The notes under the pieces are model-generated. The model did no database searches. It saw only the letters and a program-made list of their open reading frames with translations, and was not told where the DNA came from. Shown here in pieces: positions 21,762 through 59,833 of a stretch of DNA of 64,000 nucleotides; within the stretch, counting starts at the first letter, position 1; each line of letters begins with the position of its first letter. Made by a program: the position numbers and the translations under genes. Source of the stretch: an uncultured Litoreibacter sp. (GTDB taxonomy: Bacteria; Pseudomonadota; Alphaproteobacteria; Rhodobacterales; Rhodobacteraceae); the NCBI GenBank assembly GCA_947494645.1, contig CANLVO010000002.1:62001-126000 (forward strand). Reading direction: 5' to 3'.

Positions 21762-22835
21762 ATGAGCCAAGAGACGCCGCAAGAGGTGATCCCGCCCCAA
21801 CAGCAAGCTCCTGCTGCGCGTCCAGCAGAAGGCAAGCCAATAAATTTTGGCGCCTACTTGCGCCAAGACAGTGGTCTGGCTGCCGCTGATGTGATCGCCA
21901 TCGCGCTGACAGTGTTATGGGTTCTGAGCGTCCTAGTGTATTTCATGTTCCTGCGGGACCCAAATGCGGGCAGAGCCACACAGTCGGGATACCTTCTGTC
22001 TATCCTAGCAATTTTCCTGCCGATCGCGATGATCTGGATTGGGGCCACCGTGGTGAAATCTGCCCGGATCATGCGCGAGGAAAGTGCCCGTCTGCAGGCG
22101 TCCATCGACGCGATGCGCAATGCGTATCTGTCGCATAACCAGGCGCGGGTGGACGGTGTTAAGCCTGCGCTGGAGCAAAAGCTTGACGAGATCGTCGCCC
22201 GCCAGAAACAGGCCGAGACGGCGATTGCAACCTTCGCGACGAGCCGGGATAACCAACTTCCCGCCGACTCCCCGCAACAACCCGCGCTGGTTTCGGAAGG
22301 TATCGCCTCCGGGGACAGCCAGCCGATGCTGGCACTTGGTACCCCGCCTGAGGCCTTGAACCCTGCGCTTTCGATTAGTGACTTTATAGGTGCGATGAAT
22401 TTTCCTGAAAATGAGAACGACGCGGAAGGGTTCGGCCAGCTGCGCCGGGCCTTGGCCGATGCCAATTCAGGCAAGCTGATCCGGGCTTCGCAGGACGTGC
22501 TGACCCTGCTCAGCCATGACGGAATTTATATGGATGATTTGCGGCCCGACCGGTCTCGACCCGTGCTGTGGCGCAAGTTTGCGGAAGGGCAACGCGGCGC
22601 CGCGATCTCGGGGATTGGCGGTATTCATGATCGCTCCGCATTGGCGCTGGCCTCTGGCCGTATGCGGGCCGATCCGATCTTTCGTGACGCGGTGCACCAT
22701 TTTTTGCGTCAGTTCGACCGTACTTTTGCGCGTTTCAGCGAGCATGCGACGGATGATGACATCATCCGGCTTGCCGACACCCGCACCGCGCGGGCGTTTA
22801 TGCTGCTCGGTCGGGTGACCGGGACGTTTGACTAA
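21762..22835 (+). CDS. hypothetical membrane/coiled-coil protein
   Basis: Two N-terminal TM helices then coiled coil; intact ORF with codon bias. Confidence 0.7.
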   Translation: MSQETPQEVIPPQQQAPAARPAEGKPINFGAYLRQDSGLAAADVIAIALTVLWVLSVLVYFMFLRDPNAGRATQSGYLLSILAIFLPIAMIWIGATVVKSARIMREESARLQASIDAMRNAYLSHNQARVDGVKPALEQKLDEIVARQKQAETAIATFATSRDNQLPADSPQQPALVSEGIASGDSQPMLALGTPPEALNPALSISDFIGAMNFPENENDAEGFGQLRRALADANSGKLIRASQDVLTLLSHDGIYMDDLRPDRSRPVLWRKFAEGQRGAAISGIGGIHDRSALALASGRMRADPIFRDAVHHFLRQFDRTFARFSEHATDDDIIRLADTRTARAFMLLGRVTGTFD

Positions 22836-24937
22836 AGACCGTAGCTGGAAAACGGCACGTAGCGCACCAAGTCGCCGGGTGTGACCTTCTGCGCTGGATC
22901 ATCCAGCTCTACAAACCCATCTGCCCAGCTGAGGCCCGAGATGCGGCCCGACCCTTCAGAGGCAAACACCTCTACGTGGCCATCGTCGGTCAGGCGCGCC
23001 CGCGAAAATTCTCGGCGCCCTTGCTTTTTGGATTTGGAGAAAGCGGCAGGGACCATGAAGCCACGCGGGTCAGACCATCTGCCGCCCGCCAGCACCGATA
23101 AGGACGGCCGCGCGAAAATCAACGCGCAAGTAAAGGCCGCGACCGGGTTGCCCGGAAGGCCAAATATCGGGGTGCCGTTCCACATGGCCAAGGCCAGCGG
23201 ACGGCCCGGCTTGATCGCAATCCGCCAGCTTGTCAGGGACCCTTCCTCGGTCAGTAAGGCGGAGACGTGATCTTCATCCCCAGCCGAAGCGCCGCCCGAG
23301 GTTAGGATGACGTCGCAGCGGCCGGCGGCCTCGTTCAACACGTCACGAAGCGCGTCACGGTCATCACCCACATGCCCCAAATCGACAGCATCGTAGCTCC
23401 ACCGTTTGGCGAGGCTCAACAGCATGGGACGGTTGGCGTCAAAGGTGCGATCAGCAGGCGCATCGGCTTTTGGGGCGATCAGCTCGTCGCCGGTGGACAA
23501 GACCCCCACGCGCAGACGCTTGGTCACTGTGATGTCTGAGACGCCCAAGGCCGTCAGAAGCGCTGCATCTTGCGGACGCATAAGATGGGTCGCTCGAAGC
23601 GCCAACGCTCCTTGCACCACATCTTCGCCCGCCTTGCGCGTGTTTTGCCCTTGCTTCACTTTGTCGGGTAAAGCGACCTGCCCGTCCGTGACGGTACATT
23701 CCTCCTGCATCACCACCGTGTCGACCCCTTCGGGCAGGACTGCGCCGGTCAGAATGCGGATCGCCTGACCTGCGGGCAGGGCCTCCTTGAACGCCGCGCC
23801 AGCGGCTGCGCGGCCGGCGCTCAGGGGCATTTTGCGCTCCATGTGCTCAAAGGCGAAACCGTAGCCGTCGATTGCAGAGTTCGGGGCTGGCGGGTTTGAA
23901 CGTAGGGCAGAGATGTCCTCTGCCAGAATGCGACCTGCACTTTCGGAAACAGGGATGGTTTCGACCCCCATGACTGGCTGCATCCGGTCTTTCAGACGCG
24001 CCAGCGCCTCATCGACCGAGGTCCAGTTCACCCCTTGTGGCAGGGCGAAGCAATCATTGGCCAGAGCCTCTGGTTTGATCTGTTCGTTTGCCATCCGCGC
24101 CAACTCCGCCTCATGTCCAACCCCGAGGATCCAGCCTTCGCTGGCTCCGGTTTGGCCCTCTGCCAACATGGCGTCCAGCCGCCCGTGTTTGTCAAGCGAT
24201 GCCAGCACACCCGCTAAAACCCGCATCTGCGCTGCGTCTTTGATTTCTCCGGGCTGTTGCGCCTGCGCGATCTGCGGCGCGATCAGGGAAGGCCATATTT
24301 CAACGAAAGCGACAGGGGTCTGCAACTGCTCAAACGGCCAGACAGAGACCTGTCCCGCAAAACGCTGCCTGAGCCGGGAAAGCACCGGCAGGCCCATGAG
24401 CACCTGCGAACCAACGGCCCCCGCCCCCGCCAGTTGCCAGCAGGTGAAACTGCCCTTCGCGCGGTTTTCTACGGCGCGACGTTCGGGAAATTCTGTATTG
24501 GTGCGGGCCAATCCTTTACGGGGCAGATCCGCGTAGTCTTGAGATCGGAACGGATTGCCCCAGAACGGACCAACACCTGCAAACAGCGCGTTGATATCAG
24601 AGGCGACCTGGCAGCGGTTGTTGCGGTCCGGGTGATCCTCGATCCTGGCCTCTAACCAGCTCCACATCGCCAAAGGGTCTTCTGACCCCGTGACCGCCTC
24701 AGCAAAACCTGCCGGGTAGCCAAAGGGGAAGTCAAAGCCGATCAGGCAACGTCGACCAGCACCAGTTTCCGTTTCGATGAGCTCCGCCAACCATTGCTCA
24801 GCAACTTGGCGGTTGCGCAGATAGACGGGCGTCGCGTCGCCGGCGTTGCAGACCCAAATCGCGTCTTTGCGCGGGCGGGCCCCTGCGTCGTTTCCTCCAG
24901 ACCAATCGACCACCACATACGTGTCGAACAGGGTCAC
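22832..24937 (-). CDS. moeA: fusion: uncharacterised RNase H-like N-domain + molybdopterin molybdotransferase MoeA
   Basis: C-terminal 390 aa is MoeA (DGYGF, GVLSTGDEL, TSGGASAGDEDHV, GLPGNPVAA); N-terminal approx 310 aa has VVVDWSGG...LIGFDFPFGYP. Confidence 0.88.
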   Translation of the reverse strand: MTLFDTYVVVDWSGGNDAGARPRKDAIWVCNAGDATPVYLRNRQVAEQWLAELIETETGAGRRCLIGFDFPFGYPAGFAEAVTGSEDPLAMWSWLEARIEDHPDRNNRCQVASDINALFAGVGPFWGNPFRSQDYADLPRKGLARTNTEFPERRAVENRAKGSFTCWQLAGAGAVGSQVLMGLPVLSRLRQRFAGQVSVWPFEQLQTPVAFVEIWPSLIAPQIAQAQQPGEIKDAAQMRVLAGVLASLDKHGRLDAMLAEGQTGASEGWILGVGHEAELARMANEQIKPEALANDCFALPQGVNWTSVDEALARLKDRMQPVMGVETIPVSESAGRILAEDISALRSNPPAPNSAIDGYGFAFEHMERKMPLSAGRAAAGAAFKEALPAGQAIRILTGAVLPEGVDTVVMQEECTVTDGQVALPDKVKQGQNTRKAGEDVVQGALALRATHLMRPQDAALLTALGVSDITVTKRLRVGVLSTGDELIAPKADAPADRTFDANRPMLLSLAKRWSYDAVDLGHVGDDRDALRDVLNEAAGRCDVILTSGGASAGDEDHVSALLTEEGSLTSWRIAIKPGRPLALAMWNGTPIFGLPGNPVAAFTCALIFARPSLSVLAGGRWSDPRGFMVPAAFSKSKKQGRREFSRARLTDDGHVEVFASEGSGRISGLSWADGFVELDDPAQKVTPGDLVRYVPFSSYGL

Positions 24938-25428
24938 ATCTCAAGCTCAGAGAGGATGAAATCGGCAATGGCTTTGGTGTCATCCAGATCAAGGAGGGGG
25001 ACGCTCAGCCCGTCGGGGTCAGTGTTGCTGGCGACCGCCCGGATCGTGTCGTCGTCCACGGCGATCAGCGGTTGGCCGGTCTCGGCGCGATGCGCCTCGA
25101 TCTTCGGGTGCGTGTCGCGCTTATAGCCCTCGATCAGTACCAAATCGACGGGCGAGAGCTTGGCCAACAATTCTGCCAAAGGCGGCTCTTTCGCGCCGCG
25201 CAACTCGCTCATCAACGCCCAACGGTTAGACGAGGACAACAATACCTGCTGCGCGCCAGCCACGCGGTGCCGGTCGCTGTCCTTGCCGGGGCGGTCAACC
25301 TCAAAACTATGATGGGCATGTTTAAGGGTGGACACGCTCAACCCCCGCGAGACGAACTCAGCCACGAGCCGCTCCATCAACCCGGTCTTGCCAGAGTTCT
25401 TCCAGCCCACAACACCAAAAACGTTCAT
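24934..25428 (-). CDS. mobB: molybdopterin-guanine dinucleotide biosynthesis protein B
   Basis: GVVGWKNSGKTGLMERLV P-loop, LVLIEGYKRD. Confidence 0.93.
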   Translation of the reverse strand: MNVFGVVGWKNSGKTGLMERLVAEFVSRGLSVSTLKHAHHSFEVDRPGKDSDRHRVAGAQQVLLSSSNRWALMSELRGAKEPPLAELLAKLSPVDLVLIEGYKRDTHPKIEAHRAETGQPLIAVDDDTIRAVASNTDPDGLSVPLLDLDDTKAIADFILSELEM

Positions 25429-27006: not shown

Positions 27007-27705
27007 ATGACCACTTCCACCTCGAAATCAACCTATCTGCTGGGTCTCACTCGGGCGCTGCCTTTTGTGATCGTGGTGATCCCCTTTGCGATGCTGTTCG
27101 GGGTGGTGGCCACGGAAGCGGGGCTGCCTTTGTCGCAGACGATGGCGTTCTCAGTTTTGGTGGTGGCGGGGGCGTCGCAGTTTGCCGCGCTGCAGTTCAT
27201 GTCGGAGAATGCGCCCGTATTGGTGATCCTCGCCTCGGCATTGGCGGTCAATCTGCGGATGGCGATGTATTCAGCCTCGATCACGCCGCATCTGGGATCT
27301 GCGCCGATGTGGCAGCGGGTGGTGATCTCGTATTTTCTGGTCGACCAAAGCTACGCCATGTCCAACGCTGAGTTTGAAGCGCGGCCCGAGATGAATTTGC
27401 GTGAAAAGCTTGCGTATTTCGCGGGAGTGTCGACGCCAATCTGCCCGCTCTGGTTTGGTTTCTCCTATCTGGGGGCGGTGCTGGGGGACCGGATCCCGTC
27501 CGACTACGGTCTGGACTTCGCGATGCCGATCGCGTTCCTGGCGATGGTTGCGCCCGCGTTGCGCACGCCTGCCCATATCGCAGCAGCGTTTGTGTCGATT
27601 GTGCTGGCGCTTGGATTGTTCTGGGTGCCGCTAAACCTCGGCCTGCTCATCGCGGCTGTCTTTGCCATGATGACGGGCGCCGAGATTGAACGGCGGATGG
27701 CATGA
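27007..27705 (+). CDS. azlC: AzlC family branched-chain amino acid permease
   Basis: FAMLFGVVATEAGL, VAGASQFAALQ; followed by azlD. Confidence 0.9.
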   Translation: MTTSTSKSTYLLGLTRALPFVIVVIPFAMLFGVVATEAGLPLSQTMAFSVLVVAGASQFAALQFMSENAPVLVILASALAVNLRMAMYSASITPHLGSAPMWQRVVISYFLVDQSYAMSNAEFEARPEMNLREKLAYFAGVSTPICPLWFGFSYLGAVLGDRIPSDYGLDFAMPIAFLAMVAPALRTPAHIAAAFVSIVLALGLFWVPLNLGLLIAAVFAMMTGAEIERRMA

Positions 27706-53334: not shown

Positions 53335-54102
53335 CTAGGTTAGAACCTTTGGACGCAAGACATGGGGTATTTGGGGGTCGTAAAGCGCGGAATCTTTGAA
53401 GTCTTTGATGTCCGCCAGAGCCGGACCCACCAGAATCAACGCCGTGCGGGTAATCTTTTCAGCCCGCACTTTGGCGTGAATTTCGCTTAGCGTGCCGCGC
53501 AGAAACACCTCGTCCGGCCAACTGGCCCGGTAGGCCACCACCACAGGGCAATCAGCCCCATAATGGGGCGTCAACACGCGCTCGATCTCGCGCAGGGCTC
53601 GGATGCCGAGGTGAATGGCGAGGGTCGCGCCTGTGCGGGCAAAATTCTCCAGCGTCTCGCCTTCTGGCATAGACGTCGATTTCATCGACATACGGGTCAG
53701 CACGATGGATTGCGCGATTTCGGGGACCGTCAATTCCTGTCCTAAGGCGGCGGCGGCGGCGGCATAGGCAGGCACGCCGGGGATGATCTGGTAGTCGATG
53801 CCGTCAGCTTTCAATCGGCGGATCTGCTCTGCAATCGCGCCATAAAGCGACGGATCGCCGGAATGAACGCGCGCTACGTCTTGGCCCTTAGCATGGGCTA
53901 CGGCAATCTGCGCATGGGTGTCGTCCAGCGTCATCGGTGCGGTGTCCATGACCAACGCGCCGTCAGGTGCCCCCGCAACTACGGCCGCCGGCACCAACGA
54001 GCCTGCATAGAGGCAAACAGGACATTCCGAGATGATCCGTTGCGCCTTCAGCGTCAGCAGTTCTGGATCGCCTGGACCCGCGCCAATAAAGTAAACCGTC
54101 AT
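53335..54102 (-). CDS. cobM: precorrin-4 C11-methyltransferase
   Basis: MTVYFIGAGPGDPELLTLKAQRIISECPVCLYAGSLVP. Confidence 0.95.
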   Translation of the reverse strand: MTVYFIGAGPGDPELLTLKAQRIISECPVCLYAGSLVPAAVVAGAPDGALVMDTAPMTLDDTHAQIAVAHAKGQDVARVHSGDPSLYGAIAEQIRRLKADGIDYQIIPGVPAYAAAAAALGQELTVPEIAQSIVLTRMSMKSTSMPEGETLENFARTGATLAIHLGIRALREIERVLTPHYGADCPVVVAYRASWPDEVFLRGTLSEIHAKVRAEKITRTALILVGPALADIKDFKDSALYDPQIPHVLRPKVLT

Positions 54103-54163
54103 GTGTGAACTCCAATACGGGAGGGTGGGCGGGGCGATGCCGCAGGCGAGCGTCGCATCATCC

Positions 54164-55957
54164 TCACGCCAAATCCCCATCAATCTTGCGCGCATATCCA
54201 CGCGGCGTGTACATGCGTGGCCCCTCGCCCAGTTGCGCCAGCTTGGTATGGCTCGAGCCCACCAACACCACGGTCAGCATGTCCACTTCATCCACCTCCA
54301 ACTCGCTCAGCTTACGGTAGCGCACATGCTCCTCTGGCCGACCCAGCGAGCTTGCCAGCATAACCGGCGTATCCGCAGGTCTATGCTGCAACAAAATATC
54401 CCGCGCCTCTGCCAGCAGGGTCCGGCGGCGCATGGAGACAGGGTTGTAAAAGGCGATAACAAAATCGCCCTTGGCTGCGGCATGCAGGCGCTTCACAATA
54501 TCTTCGCGCGGCGTCAACAAGTCGGACAGCGATATGGCGCAGAAATCATGCCCCAAGGGCGCACCCGCACGTGCGGCGGCTCCTTGCAACGCCGACACCC
54601 CGGGGGTGGAGACAACCTCCACCCGGTGCGCCGCATCACTCACACCCATCTCGTCCGATGCGCGGTCCAGTAATTCAAACACCAACGCGCCCATCGCGTA
54701 AATGCCTGCATCGCCTGAACAAATCAGCGCGACGGTTTTGCCTTGGGCGGCCTGTTCGAGTGCATACCGGCAGCGGTCTTCTTCGCCCCCCAGCGGAAAG
54801 TCGGACCGTGTTTTACCATAGGCCAGCGGTCCCAGCAGATCGATGTAAAGCCCATATCCCACCAACTCTTCTGCTTCCTGAACAAGCTTGGAGGCCTCCG
54901 GTGTGCGCCAGGAATGCTGCCCAGGCCCGATGCCGATGATTGAGAGCTTGCCACGCGATCGGCCACGCAATTCGGTGAGAGGCGCGGGTGCTATCGCAAT
55001 GGCGCAGGTTGCATTCGCTGTCTTGCGTTTGGTCACTTCCAAAACCGCCTCGGCCCCGCCTTGAGCAAGGGCCGCCGCCTCACTTACGCCATGGCACCCA
55101 ACCTCGGCGAAGACCACGTCGGACGGGGTGGCGAGGCGCGGCGTTTCCGCCTCTAGCTCTGCCGCTGTAAAAACGCGCATAGGCACATCAAGCGCCTTGG
55201 CCAGGTCGATCATCGCGGGCTCGTCAGCCTTTAATTCCAATGTGTTGAGCGAGTGGATGGCCCCTTTTGCCAGCCCGACATCGGCCAGTGTTTTGTCGAC
55301 CAGTTCTGCCAATTCCTCCGGCGGGCAGTTGCGGGCACAGCCGACGCCGAGGGTCAGGCGTTGGGGGTGAAATTGCAGATCGGCGTCGCTTGGGGTGATT
55401 CCGGCGGAGATTGTCAGATCGCTGCCCTTCGGCAGGCCGGACAGCCAGTCAGCTTCGCCGTCGATAGTGACGCCAGCGCCGGACAGAAGCTGTGCCATAA
55501 CCCCTTTTGCCGCCTCTGGATTTGCCAGTCCCCAACCTGCAGGGGGCTCGTCCAGCGCAACCCCCAAGGCCACGTCACCCGCTGTTGTAACGGCTGCAAC
55601 CGATTGTAATCCTTCGGCAATCTTGACCGCCAAACGGTTGGCTCCGCGATGACCACCCAAAAGTGGCACCACGACCGCACCATTGTCAGACACGGAAAGC
55701 ACCGGTGGCTCCATAGTCTTGTTTGCCAGCAGCGGTGCGACGGCTCGGATCAGTATGCCGGAAGCACAAACGCCTATGACCGGCGTGCCCGCGGCGAAGA
55801 GTGTGCGGGCATGGTCGAGGGCATTGGCGAAGAAGAAATCCGCGACATCGACACGGCTCTCTCGGCCATGCACGGGCGCGTCCAGCAGCTTGGCGATGCG
55901 ATGCGCCGTGGCCTCGCCCGCGCGGTTGAGGCAGAGAACTGCCGGGGTTAGAGCCAT
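54164..55957 (-). CDS. cobJ: fusion: cobalt-precorrin-5A hydrolase (CbiG) + precorrin-3B C17-methyltransferase (CobJ/CbiH)
   Basis: N-terminal CbiG (GVCASGILIRAVAPLL, LTLGVGCARNCPPEEL), C-terminal IIGIGPGQHSWRTPEASKLVQEAEELVGYGLY. Confidence 0.92.
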   Translation of the reverse strand: MALTPAVLCLNRAGEATAHRIAKLLDAPVHGRESRVDVADFFFANALDHARTLFAAGTPVIGVCASGILIRAVAPLLANKTMEPPVLSVSDNGAVVVPLLGGHRGANRLAVKIAEGLQSVAAVTTAGDVALGVALDEPPAGWGLANPEAAKGVMAQLLSGAGVTIDGEADWLSGLPKGSDLTISAGITPSDADLQFHPQRLTLGVGCARNCPPEELAELVDKTLADVGLAKGAIHSLNTLELKADEPAMIDLAKALDVPMRVFTAAELEAETPRLATPSDVVFAEVGCHGVSEAAALAQGGAEAVLEVTKRKTANATCAIAIAPAPLTELRGRSRGKLSIIGIGPGQHSWRTPEASKLVQEAEELVGYGLYIDLLGPLAYGKTRSDFPLGGEEDRCRYALEQAAQGKTVALICSGDAGIYAMGALVFELLDRASDEMGVSDAAHRVEVVSTPGVSALQGAAARAGAPLGHDFCAISLSDLLTPREDIVKRLHAAAKGDFVIAFYNPVSMRRRTLLAEARDILLQHRPADTPVMLASSLGRPEEHVRYRKLSELEVDEVDMLTVVLVGSSHTKLAQLGEGPRMYTPRGYARKIDGDLA

Positions 55958-56649
55958 GGATCGGCCCCTTTCGTAAGTAGGATCATGGAGAAATAGGGAG
56001 CCTTTTCAGGGGCTTGCGCAAGCGGCAGGACGACCTCTTCGGGCAAAGTCGCGCGTTCAACATAAGTGGCCTGATCGGTCAGACCCAGCCCATCGATCAC
56101 GGTTTTGATTTTTGCGAGGTGGCGACCGACCTTCATGATGACGACGCTTTCCGCGCCCTCGATGCGGGTCTTCAGCTCTGCCTCCGGCAGGGGTCCGGGC
56201 AGCACGGTCAGACGTTCGTTGCGGGCGGCCAGTGGCATTCCGGCGCGGGTGGCGCAGGCGGTGATGGAGGTGACGCCGGGGATGACTTCGATGTCAAAAT
56301 CGCGGGAAAGTCTCGCGTAGAGATACATGAAAGAGCCGTAGAAGAACGGATCTCCTTCGCACAAACAGACGATATTTTCGCCTGTTTCCAGTATCTTAGA
56401 AATCTGTGCGGCGCCTGCGTCATAGGCATTCTGGGCAGGTTGCCGCTCCGTCGTCATCGGCACGTCCATGCGGATTTCGCGGGTGCCTTCCTTGATCAGG
56501 TCTTTGGCAATGGCACGTGCGAAGCTGTCGCCTCCGGCGAGCGTGGGGTAGGCGATGGTGGTCGCGTTTTCGATCAAGCGGGCAGCTTTTAGGGTGATCA
56601 ATTCGGGGTCACCCGGGCCGAGGCCAATGCCGTAGAGCGTGCCTTTCAT
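55948..56649 (-). CDS. cobI: precorrin-2 C20-methyltransferase
   Basis: MKGTLYGIGLGPGDPELITLKAARLI; VIPGVTSITACA. Confidence 0.95.
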   Translation of the reverse strand: MKGTLYGIGLGPGDPELITLKAARLIENATTIAYPTLAGGDSFARAIAKDLIKEGTREIRMDVPMTTERQPAQNAYDAGAAQISKILETGENIVCLCEGDPFFYGSFMYLYARLSRDFDIEVIPGVTSITACATRAGMPLAARNERLTVLPGPLPEAELKTRIEGAESVVIMKVGRHLAKIKTVIDGLGLTDQATYVERATLPEEVVLPLAQAPEKAPYFSMILLTKGADPWL

Positions 56650-57863
56650 CGCTTCACAAGGCTCCATTGGGTGACTGTCATGGCCGGACGCCAGCCAGTC
56701 AAACGGCCCACGGGTTCGGCGCGCTCAACACCGATTTTGACCAGTGATCCGCCATGCTTTTTGTGCAGTGCGATGAGAAGACTCTCGCTTTCCAGGGTCA
56801 CCGCATTGGCGACCAGGCGGCCCAAAGGGCGCAGGTTTTCCCAAGCGATATCAAAGGTTTCTTCGCTCAATCCCCCGCCGATGAAGATGGCATCGGGGGC
56901 GTCGAGGCCGCTCAAGGCGGCGGGAACTTCGCCCTCGATGAGCTGCAGCTTTGGGGCCCCCAAGGCGAGTGCGTTTTCGGCGGCCATGGCGCGTCTGTCG
57001 GCGCGGGGTTCGATGCCGATGGCGCGGGCGTAGCGTGCGGCGCGCATCCATTCGATGGCGACCGAGCCGGAGCCCGTGCCGATATCCCATAGAAGGGCGC
57101 CGCGCATGGGCATGAGTTTGGCAAGCGTTGCCGCCCTAACCTCTTGTTTTGTCATGGTTCCGTCGGACTGAAACAGGTCATCTGCGAGGCCCGGAACGCG
57201 CGGCAGCAGGGCGGCATCAGGGGCGGCGATGCAGTTGACGGCGAGGGTGTTGAAGGCAGGGACCTCGTGGGTCCAGTCTCCCGCAAGTCCCTCAAAACGC
57301 TTCTCTTTTTTGCCTCCCATATTGGCAAGCACTGTCATTTCAGATTGCCCGAAGCCGCGTTCTGTCAGGAAGTTGGCGATCTGGGCCGGGGTCTCTGCGC
57401 CTGTCGTGAGGATGATAAGCTTTTGATCTGGTTGAATAAAAGCGACCATCTGGTGCACGGGACGCCCATGGACGGTGAGGGTTTCGACATCCGCGAGACT
57501 CCAACCCATACGGGCCGCGGTGAGCTGAAACGCGGAGAGTTGCGGGTGATAGACGATCTCTGAGGGGTCTATAGCGCGCCCAATACGGGCCCCGACGGAG
57601 AACCAAAGCGGGTCGCCTGTGGCCAAGACGACCACGCGCTTGCCTTTGAATTCATTGAGTTTTTCAATGAGTGCGTCGAAGGGCGACGGCCATGCGACGC
57701 GGGTGGCGGTGACGTTGTCTGACAGCTGGTGATGGCGATCGCCGCCGACGATGATCTCGGCGGCTTCGACCACGGCGCGGGTGGCGGGGGAGAGGCCGTC
57801 CATGCCGTCCTCGCCAATGCCGACGATATGCAACCATTTGTTAGGGTTTGAGCGCTCAGACAT
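56646..57863 (-). CDS. cobL: precorrin-6Y C5,15-methyltransferase (decarboxylating), CbiE-CbiT fusion
   Basis: WLHIVGIGEDGMDGLSPATRAVVEAAEIIVGG; MPMRGALLWDIGTGSGSVAIEWMRAA. Confidence 0.95.
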   Translation of the reverse strand: MSERSNPNKWLHIVGIGEDGMDGLSPATRAVVEAAEIIVGGDRHHQLSDNVTATRVAWPSPFDALIEKLNEFKGKRVVVLATGDPLWFSVGARIGRAIDPSEIVYHPQLSAFQLTAARMGWSLADVETLTVHGRPVHQMVAFIQPDQKLIILTTGAETPAQIANFLTERGFGQSEMTVLANMGGKKEKRFEGLAGDWTHEVPAFNTLAVNCIAAPDAALLPRVPGLADDLFQSDGTMTKQEVRAATLAKLMPMRGALLWDIGTGSGSVAIEWMRAARYARAIGIEPRADRRAMAAENALALGAPKLQLIEGEVPAALSGLDAPDAIFIGGGLSEETFDIAWENLRPLGRLVANAVTLESESLLIALHKKHGGSLVKIGVERAEPVGRLTGWRPAMTVTQWSLVKR

Positions 57864-57872
57864 GCGGTTTAC

Positions 57873-57887
57873 CCCATTTTGTACAAA
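57873..57887. promoter_or_regulatory. candidate operator, copy A: CCCATTTTGTACAAA
   Basis: Contains perfect palindrome TTTGTACAAA; identical 15-mer repeated 31 bp away. Confidence 0.5.
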
Positions 57888-57903
57888 TCTTTTTGGCCCA
57901 AAA

Positions 57904-57918
57904 CCCATTTTGTACAAA
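57904..57918. promoter_or_regulatory. candidate operator, copy B: CCCATTTTGTACAAA
   Basis: Identical to copy A, in cobH-cobL intergenic region. Confidence 0.5.
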
Positions 57919-57923
57919 AGTTT

Positions 57924-58562
57924 TCACGGCTGAACCTCCGGCAGACCGGCGGCGAGCGCGTTGACCGCAGCGGAGGCGATGGCCGATCCGCCTTTGCGAC
58001 CTTTCAAGGCCACGAAATCGCAACCGCGCGGGTTGGCGGCGAGCTCGGCTTTCGACTCGGCGGCCCCGACGAAACCCACGGGGAAGCCGAGGATCAGACT
58101 GGGTTTAGGAAAACCTTGGTCGAGCAGGTCGAGGAGATGAAACAAGGCGGTCGGCGCGTTCCCGATGGCGACCACTGCGCCTTCAAGATGCGGCTGCCAC
58201 AGCTCTACCGCCGCGGCCGACCTTGTGTTGCCGATCTTGGCAGCCCGATCCGGGGTGGTGGGGTCATTGAGAGTGACGATGACCTCGTTCTCGGCGGGAA
58301 GGTAGCGGCGGATGATGCCTGCGGCGACCATCTCGCAATCGCACAGGACGGGCGCGCCGTTTTGCAGCGCGGCGTAGCCTTTGAGATAGGCGGAGTCCGT
58401 GAAGGCCAAGCGGTCGGCGATTTCGACCATGCCGCAAGCGTGGATGACGCGGGTCGCGAGGCGGTCGAGACCGTTTGGAAACCGCGCGAGATTGGCCTCA
58501 GCCTGCACGGTGGCGAAGCTGGCCTTGTAAATCTCGGCAGGGTTTTTCTCGTAGGGTCTCAT
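57924..58562 (-). CDS. cobH: precorrin-8X methylmutase
   Basis: RVIHACGMVEIADRLAFTD, GNAPTALFHLLDLL, GFPVGFVGAAESKAEL. Confidence 0.96.
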   Translation of the reverse strand: MRPYEKNPAEIYKASFATVQAEANLARFPNGLDRLATRVIHACGMVEIADRLAFTDSAYLKGYAALQNGAPVLCDCEMVAAGIIRRYLPAENEVIVTLNDPTTPDRAAKIGNTRSAAAVELWQPHLEGAVVAIGNAPTALFHLLDLLDQGFPKPSLILGFPVGFVGAAESKAELAANPRGCDFVALKGRKGGSAIASAAVNALAAGLPEVQP

Positions 58563-58624
58563 GGGTGGCGCTTGGTGTTGGCGGAGGGAGCCTCCGGCGG
58601 GGATATTTTAGAACATGGGAAGAC

Positions 58625-59833
58625 TTAGGTTTTGGCTTTGCGGGCGCTTTCGGGGCCGTGGGGGTGTTTGGCGTGGGGGTAAGGCGCGTGGTGGTGGTGA
58701 TCATGCCCGTGGTCGTGGCCGTGCGTATGATCGTGGCCGTGGTGGTGATGATGGTGGTGGTCCTGCATTTCGAGACGGCAGACGCCGGTGCAGAACGTGT
58801 CGCAATGGGTGCAATCGGCCACGTTTGAGCCGGGCGCAGACGCGCCCTGACCTTCGACGTGGTGGTGATGGGATTCCTGAATGGCGCCGACTTCGGCCTC
58901 GAAGCCGAGAACCTGCGTGCGGTATTTGCACAAGACGCAGGTGGGGGGCGGTGTGTCGGCGAAAGCCGGGTGGTTGCGCTGGTCGGGTGTGATGTGGCGG
59001 TGTTCGCCATTGTCAAAGGCCAGCACCTGTTCGCGGTAGCCGCAGATGCCGCAATTAGGGGGCGGGTTGGCGCCCATTTGTTCGGTCACACGTTCGGCGA
59101 AGGTTTCGAGCACCTTTGCGTGGTCGTTGAGATAGCCCGCTTTGACGAATTCGATATCTGTATGTTCGGCGGCGACCTGATCGGTGAAGCCGTAGATGCG
59201 GTCGATCAGGATGCCGGTGAACAGGAAATACGGGAAGACGATGATGCGCTTGTAGCCGAGCTTGGCGGCATGTTGCAGGCAAGGCTCCACCAGCGGGAAG
59301 GTGACGCCGGAATAGCCTGTTTCGACCCAGCCAAAGCCCATGCCTTCATGCAGCATGCGGGCGATTTTGGCGACATTGCCGTTGGCGTCGGGGTCGGACG
59401 CGCCACGCCCTATGACGACGAGGCAGGTGTCTTCGTTGGCGACATGTTTGGTGGTGTTGGCTTGGTCGACCGCGTCCTGGATGCGGGCACCGGCGGCGGC
59501 GATCATTTTAGGATCGACGCCAAGCTCGCGGCCATAACTGATCTCGATCCCGTGCTTGGCGGCGTAGGTGTTCAGGACCGTGGGGATGTCATTTTTGGAA
59601 TGCATCGCGGCAAAGAGCATGCCGGGGACGGCGAGGATCTTGTCGCAGCCCGCTTCGCGCAGTTTGTCGAGGCCGTCGCGAATGACGGGGTTGGCAAATT
59701 CGAGGTAGCCGTATTCGACCAGCCAATCATCGGGGACGTAAGCGGGCAGCTTTTCGGCGAGAACCGAGAATTGGTCGACGGCCGCTTGGGAGCGTGAGCC
59801 GTGGCCGCAGATCATGACACCTGTTTTGCTCAT
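58625..59833 (-). CDS. cbiX: sirohydrochlorin cobaltochelatase CbiX, long form with Cys motifs and His-rich tail
   Basis: VMICGHGSRSQAAVDQF, FPYFLFTGILIDRI; C-terminal CGICGYREQVLAF, CVLCKYRTQVLGF, DHHHHHHHGHDHTHGHDHGHDHHHH. Confidence 0.92.
   Translation of the reverse strand: MSKTGVMICGHGSRSQAAVDQFSVLAEKLPAYVPDDWLVEYGYLEFANPVIRDGLDKLREAGCDKILAVPGMLFAAMHSKNDIPTVLNTYAAKHGIEISYGRELGVDPKMIAAAGARIQDAVDQANTTKHVANEDTCLVVIGRGASDPDANGNVAKIARMLHEGMGFGWVETGYSGVTFPLVEPCLQHAAKLGYKRIIVFPYFLFTGILIDRIYGFTDQVAAEHTDIEFVKAGYLNDHAKVLETFAERVTEQMGANPPPNCGICGYREQVLAFDNGEHRHITPDQRNHPAFADTPPPTCVLCKYRTQVLGFEAEVGAIQESHHHHVEGQGASAPGSNVADCTHCDTFCTGVCRLEMQDHHHHHHHGHDHTHGHDHGHDHHHHAPYPHAKHPHGPESARKAKT

Follow-up and report, generated by a model that had tools for sequence, protein, structure and literature searches.

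Known domain fusions in molybdenum and cobalamin cofactor synthesis

The N-terminal domain treated here, for which we use the name NDOM, has its closest described relative in the NCBIfam model PRK14495 (NF011066), entitled 'MobB/unknown domain fusion', where the same domain occupies model positions 167–449, likewise in a mob setting and with no function stated in the model. Additional domains joined to MoeA are also found in gephyrin and Cnx1 (MogA–MoeA) and in PRK14491 (MobB–MoeA); their partners MogA and MobB act in the same pathway, whereas NDOM has no known pathway role. Methylorubrum extorquens MoeA1 is a tungsten insertase that works with MobB and carries Arg291 and Ala312, and with Lys or Ser put back its preference moves toward molybdenum (PMC13197769). 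Among RNase-H-fold proteins, DUF429 has been reported as RNase-H-like (PMC3985635). In M. smegmatis MSMEG_5849, a DUF429 domain is fused to a (p)ppGpp synthetase, with a reported RNase HII activity, and in mycobacterial Rv2228c an RNase HI is fused to CobC, each of the two being confirmed as active in vitro (PMC4429107, PMC5566576); with these two cases, there is precedent for the fusion of RNase-H-fold domains to metabolic enzymes.

Architecture of the fusion gene and its operon

The window, that is, the whole stretch of 64,000 nucleotides analysed here, contains the continuous 701-aa ORF that a previous sequence-only reading had described, with a GTG start on the minus strand; the plus strand of the same interval is full of stops and is not open. 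The ORF and its neighbours are as follows.

22832–24937, minus strand: whole fusion gene, NDOM and MoeA, 701 aa, GTG start, 4-nt overlap with the mobB stop
24080–24937, minus strand: NDOM, residues 1–286; RNase-H-like topology predicted; D11, D69, E213, and D234 invariant; no Pfam family
24035–24076, minus strand: flexible linker (pLDDT <50 at residues 290–294) and start of the MoeA-clade motif NDCFALPxGVxW
22832–24046, minus strand: MoeA part with its own N-terminal extension; Pfam domains; KPGR...GNPVA signature
24934–25428, minus strand: mobB, the partner upstream in the operon; PF03205
25425–26027, minus strand: mobA (molybdopterin guanylyltransferase); MobA-type NTP transferase, PF12804
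26072–27031, minus strand: fdhD (formate dehydrogenase sulfur carrier); TTG start at 27031, PF02634 match within 26950–26075

The transcription order is fdhD–mobA–mobB–[NDOM::moeA], with fdhD heading the group and the fusion gene last. The 4-nt overlaps that had been read between these genes are present (mobA, 26027–25425; mobB, 25428–24934; fusion start, 24937), but mobA and mobB precede the fusion gene and do not follow it. The motifs VVVDWSGG and LIGFDFPFGYP, recognized earlier, are residues 8–15 and 65–75 of the fusion protein. The assignment of the last ~390 aa to MoeA also holds, with the Pfam domains MoeA_N (residues 307–465), MoCF_biosynth (478–613), and MoeA_C (630–696) all over cut-off and in order, so that residues 307–696 make up a complete MoeA. 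The preceding part is an uncharacterised domain, as proposed, and is shorter than the ~310 aa given for it, consisting of about 286 aa followed by a linker near residue 290 and the MoeA-clade N-terminal motif at about 294–305. The database label of the fusion is plain MoeA (gephyrin-like molybdotransferase Glp in plasmid annotations), and a literature search found no paper that describes the fusion.

Family assignment of NDOM

Residues 1–300 have no Pfam match, even at E ≤ 1, and a PHROGs search with NDOM returned no match. Against NCBIfam, residues 4–282 match PRK14495 positions 167–449 with 237–240 bits; the fusion stays under the cut-off of that model (596 bits) because only the domain part matches (237 bits), and the domain itself belongs to the same family, known to NCBIfam only as the 'unknown domain' of this model. 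The two architectures differ in the position of the domain, which is C-terminal to MobB in PRK14495 and N-terminal to MoeA in the window. NDOM is an unnamed domain family without a Pfam entry, found here in a new architecture. A weak match of the NDOM profile to CobN (E 0.12) was taken as chance.

The sequence-only reading had likened this part to DUF429 proteins and the RNase H fold. Its view of the fold fits the predicted topology and the conserved acids described below, but membership of DUF429 is unsupported by sequence: the fusion protein has no PF04250 (DUF429) match at E ≤ 1, its NDOM relatives are unmatched too, PF04250 matches are absent from the window's genome, and hhalign against a profile of eight DUF429 proteins gave a probability of 0.5% with the last helix alone aligned. 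DUF429/COG4328-type proteins and NDOM are similar in their motif order: strand 1 holds an Asp and strand 4 [V/I]D-x-P-[I/F]-G-[L/Y]-P, after which come E-x-x-P and, in the last helix, another Asp. A sequence search found no solved relative of NDOM.

Predicted fold and invariant residues of NDOM

The NDOM model, generated with AlphaFold2 from 74 aligned sequences, is confident (pLDDT 96.3; pTM 0.93), and its elements, assigned by DSSP, run in the order β1–β2–β3–αA–β4–(helical insert)–αB–β5–αC. D11 lies at the end of strand 1, D69 after strand 4, E213 at the end of the last core strand, and D234 at the start of the next long helix. All four are invariant in both the 33 diverse and the 74 closer sequences, and W12, W126, W167, W200, R43, R108, and R154 are further invariant residues in the 33 diverse sequences. 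RNase-H-like enzymes hold metal ligands at positions matching these four acids, and we take the element order and acid placement of NDOM to represent the RNase-H-like plan. Foldseek searches against the PDB and a viral library gave no match at E ≤ 0.001 (best E about 1), and the weak matches (E about 1–4) are mostly RNase-H-fold enzymes, including RNase H1, T7 polymerase (with its exonuclease domain), and foamy-virus RNase H/integrase in the PDB, and polymerases, RNase H, and Holliday resolvases in the viral library. The fold check thus yielded the RNase-H-type order in the model and no significant match to a solved RNase-H-like structure; judging from the model, NDOM likely has an RNase-H-like fold. 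In the model of the full-length fusion, the linker (residues 290–294) has pLDDT <50 and the overall pTM is 0.59 with both domains still confident, as expected of tethered, independent domains.

With such a fold, NDOM might be a ribonuclease with RNA or R-loops as its substrates, among them perhaps the leader RNAs of cofactor operons; its gene would then travel with riboswitch-type operons, and the fusion would couple the level of the cofactor enzyme to RNA turnover. The RNase HII activity of MSMEG_5849 and the RNase HI–CobC fusion of Rv2228c provide precedents (PMC4429107). Rv2228c and MSMEG_4305 place an RNase H domain on a cobalamin enzyme, in parallel to the NDOM::CobH fusions described below, but consist of a true RNase HI and CobC, and their fused partners are of other families than those of NDOM::CobH (PMC4429107). 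We consider this explanation improbable, as NDOM has no detectable sequence relation to PF04250 and cofactor operons without NDOM are common.

Fused and split architectures in roseobacters

One genome per species was scanned and the 80 best relatives were kept, all of them from roseobacters or close kin. NDOM and MoeA share one frame in 69 of these 80 loci and are separate neighbouring genes in 9, a ratio that is no census because the 80 loci are the most similar matches; NDOM occurs without moeA in the other 2 (L094 and L128). What had been taken for a one-off is accordingly a clade-wide architecture of roseobacters. Purifying selection acts on both halves: in the comparison with the closest relative, NDOM has a dN/dS of about 0.13 and MoeA one of about 0.08. 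For more distant pairs the ratio is unsafe, with synonymous sites near saturation. The split loci (9/80) would speak for an annotation or sequencing artefact joining two genes, such as the frameshift that the sequence-only reading had envisaged, but the shared frame in 69 loci (with an in-frame stop in L056 only) and the selection on both halves reduce the probability of an artefact practically to nil, and the fusion is real. A Litoreibacter MAG copy of the fusion (L041/L056) has an in-frame TAG inside NDOM, reflecting either a pseudogene or a sequencing error.

NDOM was found in 31 of 61 relatives, and the NDOM tree requires at least 4 transitions between fused and split. Other combinations of the same genes exist as well: full-length MobB::NDOM proteins exceed the PRK14495 cut-off in two genomes of the family (G677 and G715), with a weaker full-length match in G681, and MobB::MoeA fusions occur in three relatives whose fdhD–mobA–mobB–moeA cluster has no NDOM (L240, L242, and L245). 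The existence of both MobB fusions, together with the interaction of M. extorquens MoeA1 with MobA, MobB, and FdhD (PMC13197769), would suit a catalytically silent NDOM serving as a scaffold for the assembly of MobB, MobA, MoeA, and FdhD, in which the acids are structural. We regard such a role as very unlikely, considering that the invariance of the four acids and of many polar residues extends far beyond the mob setting, that the linker is flexible, and that NDOM is optional in the clusters.

MoeA half and its tungsten signature

The insertase motifs NSxxDGYG, ILTGA, STGDE, SGGASxGDED, KPG[KR]P, and GLPGNPV show no or almost no variation among 39 fused proteins. The MoeA half is probably an intact, MobB-linked type of Mo/W insertase. 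The fused MoeA reads RIAIKPGRP...GNPVA, in which the Arg of IKPGR and the Ala of GNPVA are 21 residues apart, the spacing of Arg291 and Ala312 in M. extorquens MoeA1, whose gene is likewise mobB-linked (PMC13197769); the two differ in that no NDOM is reported for M. extorquens MoeA1 and that the metal preference of the roseobacter protein is a prediction. The second MoeA of the genome (G000:C1:1136233-1137414; L188/L190) is canonical, reading KIAMRPGKP...GNPVS. KPGR/NPVA was found in 95 mob-cluster MoeA matches, a count in which some species are represented twice and from which two further pattern matches, being unrelated frames, are left aside; RPGK/NPVS was found in 30/30 canonical paralogues. 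The division into R/A and K/S is uniform between the two paralogues across the family members examined, and some MobB-linked MoeAs of other families combine K with A. The NDOM-less mob clusters of the family also carry KPGR/PVA, so that the signature marks the MoeA clade and not the fusion, and NDOM was rejected as its cause. Going by the signature of one study, formate dehydrogenase probably receives tungsten (or both metals) through this operon.

NDOM in cobalamin gene clusters

Phylogenetic profiling, suggested by the sequence-only reading, gave the clade-wide roseobacter fusion described above and, beyond that reading, a broader association of the domain with cobalamin genes. An NDOM relative is present in 53/289 genomes of the class sample, and 39/41 matches in the phylum sample are alphaproteobacterial; outside roseobacters, most copies stand alone with about 300 aa. 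In eight loci (L131, L132, L134, L135, L138, L154, L168, and L169), NDOM is flanked by a CbiX-type chelatase on one side and by CobH on the other, after which come CbiET, CobI, CbiG–CobJ, and CobM, and in five of the eight NDOM is fused to CobH. It adjoins CobU in L136, L140, and L143, and CobQ in L145. In total, the class sample has 28 closer relatives outside roseobacters, and 10 of them, from about eight families, have a cobalamin gene next to them. A sixth NDOM::CobH fusion (L274, 3844–5154, minus strand) has a shortened NDOM that has lost D11 and the surrounding motifs; the domain seems dispensable there, and this NDOM is a decaying copy. N-terminal extensions before CobH in L275–L278 were rejected as NDOM, since they look like open-frame noise upstream of the real start.

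In the NDOM tree, the mob-cluster copies form one clade (35/36 rows, support 100), and the cob settings are scattered across its sister group. A move of NDOM from the cobalamin to the mob setting is plausible, the direction being our inference. A distant sub-group (L157–L165; hhalign E 2.5e-34), which no Pfam family covers, is mostly located near rarA/mgsA, rluC (pseudouridine synthase), and atp12, a neighbourhood that is conserved. Some stand-alone copies have ABC-transporter, alcohol-dehydrogenase, or CCA-transferase genes as neighbours, among which no common theme emerged; some (L282 and L144), including one from outside Alphaproteobacteria, are next to the gene of a poly(A) polymerase/CCA-adding enzyme.

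The window itself contains a cobalamin cluster (53335–59833, minus strand; CobM, CbiG–CobJ, CobI, CbiET, CobH, and CbiX), ordered like the NDOM-containing clusters of other Alphaproteobacteria and 33 kb from the fusion, in which CbiX directly precedes CobH with no NDOM between them.

57924–58562, minus strand: cobH, unfused; elsewhere NDOM is directly upstream or fused
58625–59833, minus strand: cbiX-type chelatase; separated from cobH by NDOM in other genomes

The CbiX-type protein of the window ends in a presumably metal-binding tail, in which there are pairs of Cys and a long run rich in His.

Relation of NDOM to the cofactor pathways

The repeated cobH/cobU/cobQ and mob/moeA neighbours in about eight families are hard to explain without a link to the cofactors. 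NDOM may act directly in cofactor assembly as an RNase-H-fold phosphodiesterase or pyrophosphatase on nucleotide-bearing intermediates or dead-end products, for which MPT-AMP or MGD (with mob/moeA) and adenosylcobinamide-GDP or related species (with cob) would be the substrates, and its tether to MoeA or CobH would serve to channel or proof-read intermediates. This role would agree with the occurrence of NDOM beside or fused to MoeA, MobB, and CobH and its abutting CobU, with its location in the cobH group, where it always has CbiX on one side and CobH on the other, and with the invariant aromatic and basic residues, which suit a planar or nucleotide ligand. Moreover, CobH is commoner in genomes with NDOM (19/31) than in those without (79/258), a comparison uncontrolled for genome size and kinship. 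However, the substrate of CobH is a nucleotide-free corrin, and the CobH fusion L274 has lost D11. NDOM also persists in genomes lacking the putative partners: MoeA and CobU are absent from G586 and G198, and CobH and MobB from G063, G278, G183, and G262, of which G063, G278, and G183 scored 100% complete and some of the six may be incompletely assembled. Conversely, several roseobacters have a complete mob–moeA cluster without NDOM, such as G296 and G302 of the window's genus, which keep fdhD–mobA–mobB–moeA; in G319 and G322 NDOM stands apart from such an NDOM-free cluster, and in G309 and G315 it is in the cob cluster while the mob cluster is NDOM-free. The persistence of NDOM without MoeA, CobU, or CobH and the NDOM-free mob clusters favour an autonomous enzyme, and the direct cofactor role, rather unlikely in our estimation, is the main rival.

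We therefore tentatively prefer, at somewhat less than even probability, the explanation that NDOM is an autonomous RNase-H-fold enzyme joined to MoeA by operon neighbourhood, with the two halves working separately. NDOM would be a metal-dependent enzyme, its most likely activity being that of a nuclease or of another phosphodiester hydrolase, and in Alphaproteobacteria it would normally be a separate protein of ~300 aa. In the roseobacter lineage, the NDOM gene may have come between mobB and the moeA of the mob cluster, where translational coupling through the 4-nt stop/start overlaps could have led to its fusion to moeA, the fused state then being lost or gained several times. The halves on the flexible linker would act separately, and the fusion would mainly secure co-expression, with NDOM forming no part of the insertase machine.

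A bolder proposal, which we consider quite unlikely, is that NDOM founds an unrecognised RNase-H-fold family whose substrates are intermediates, nucleotide-bearing or metal-loaded, that Mo/W-pterin and corrin synthesis have in common, and that the MoeA, MobB, and CobH fusions mark an undescribed step of proof-reading or salvage in both pathways.

NDOM, its putative catalytic acids invariant, is fused to enzymes from two metal cofactor pathways that are unrelated to each other; this makes the family worth testing, and the association in itself shows no role in metal insertion. If NDOM acts on cofactors, both pathways would have a step not yet known; if it is an ordinary nuclease, the fusions would show how operon neighbours fuse without shared chemistry. 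Apart from this, the mob-cluster MoeA of roseobacters looks, from its signature residues, like a tungstate insertase.
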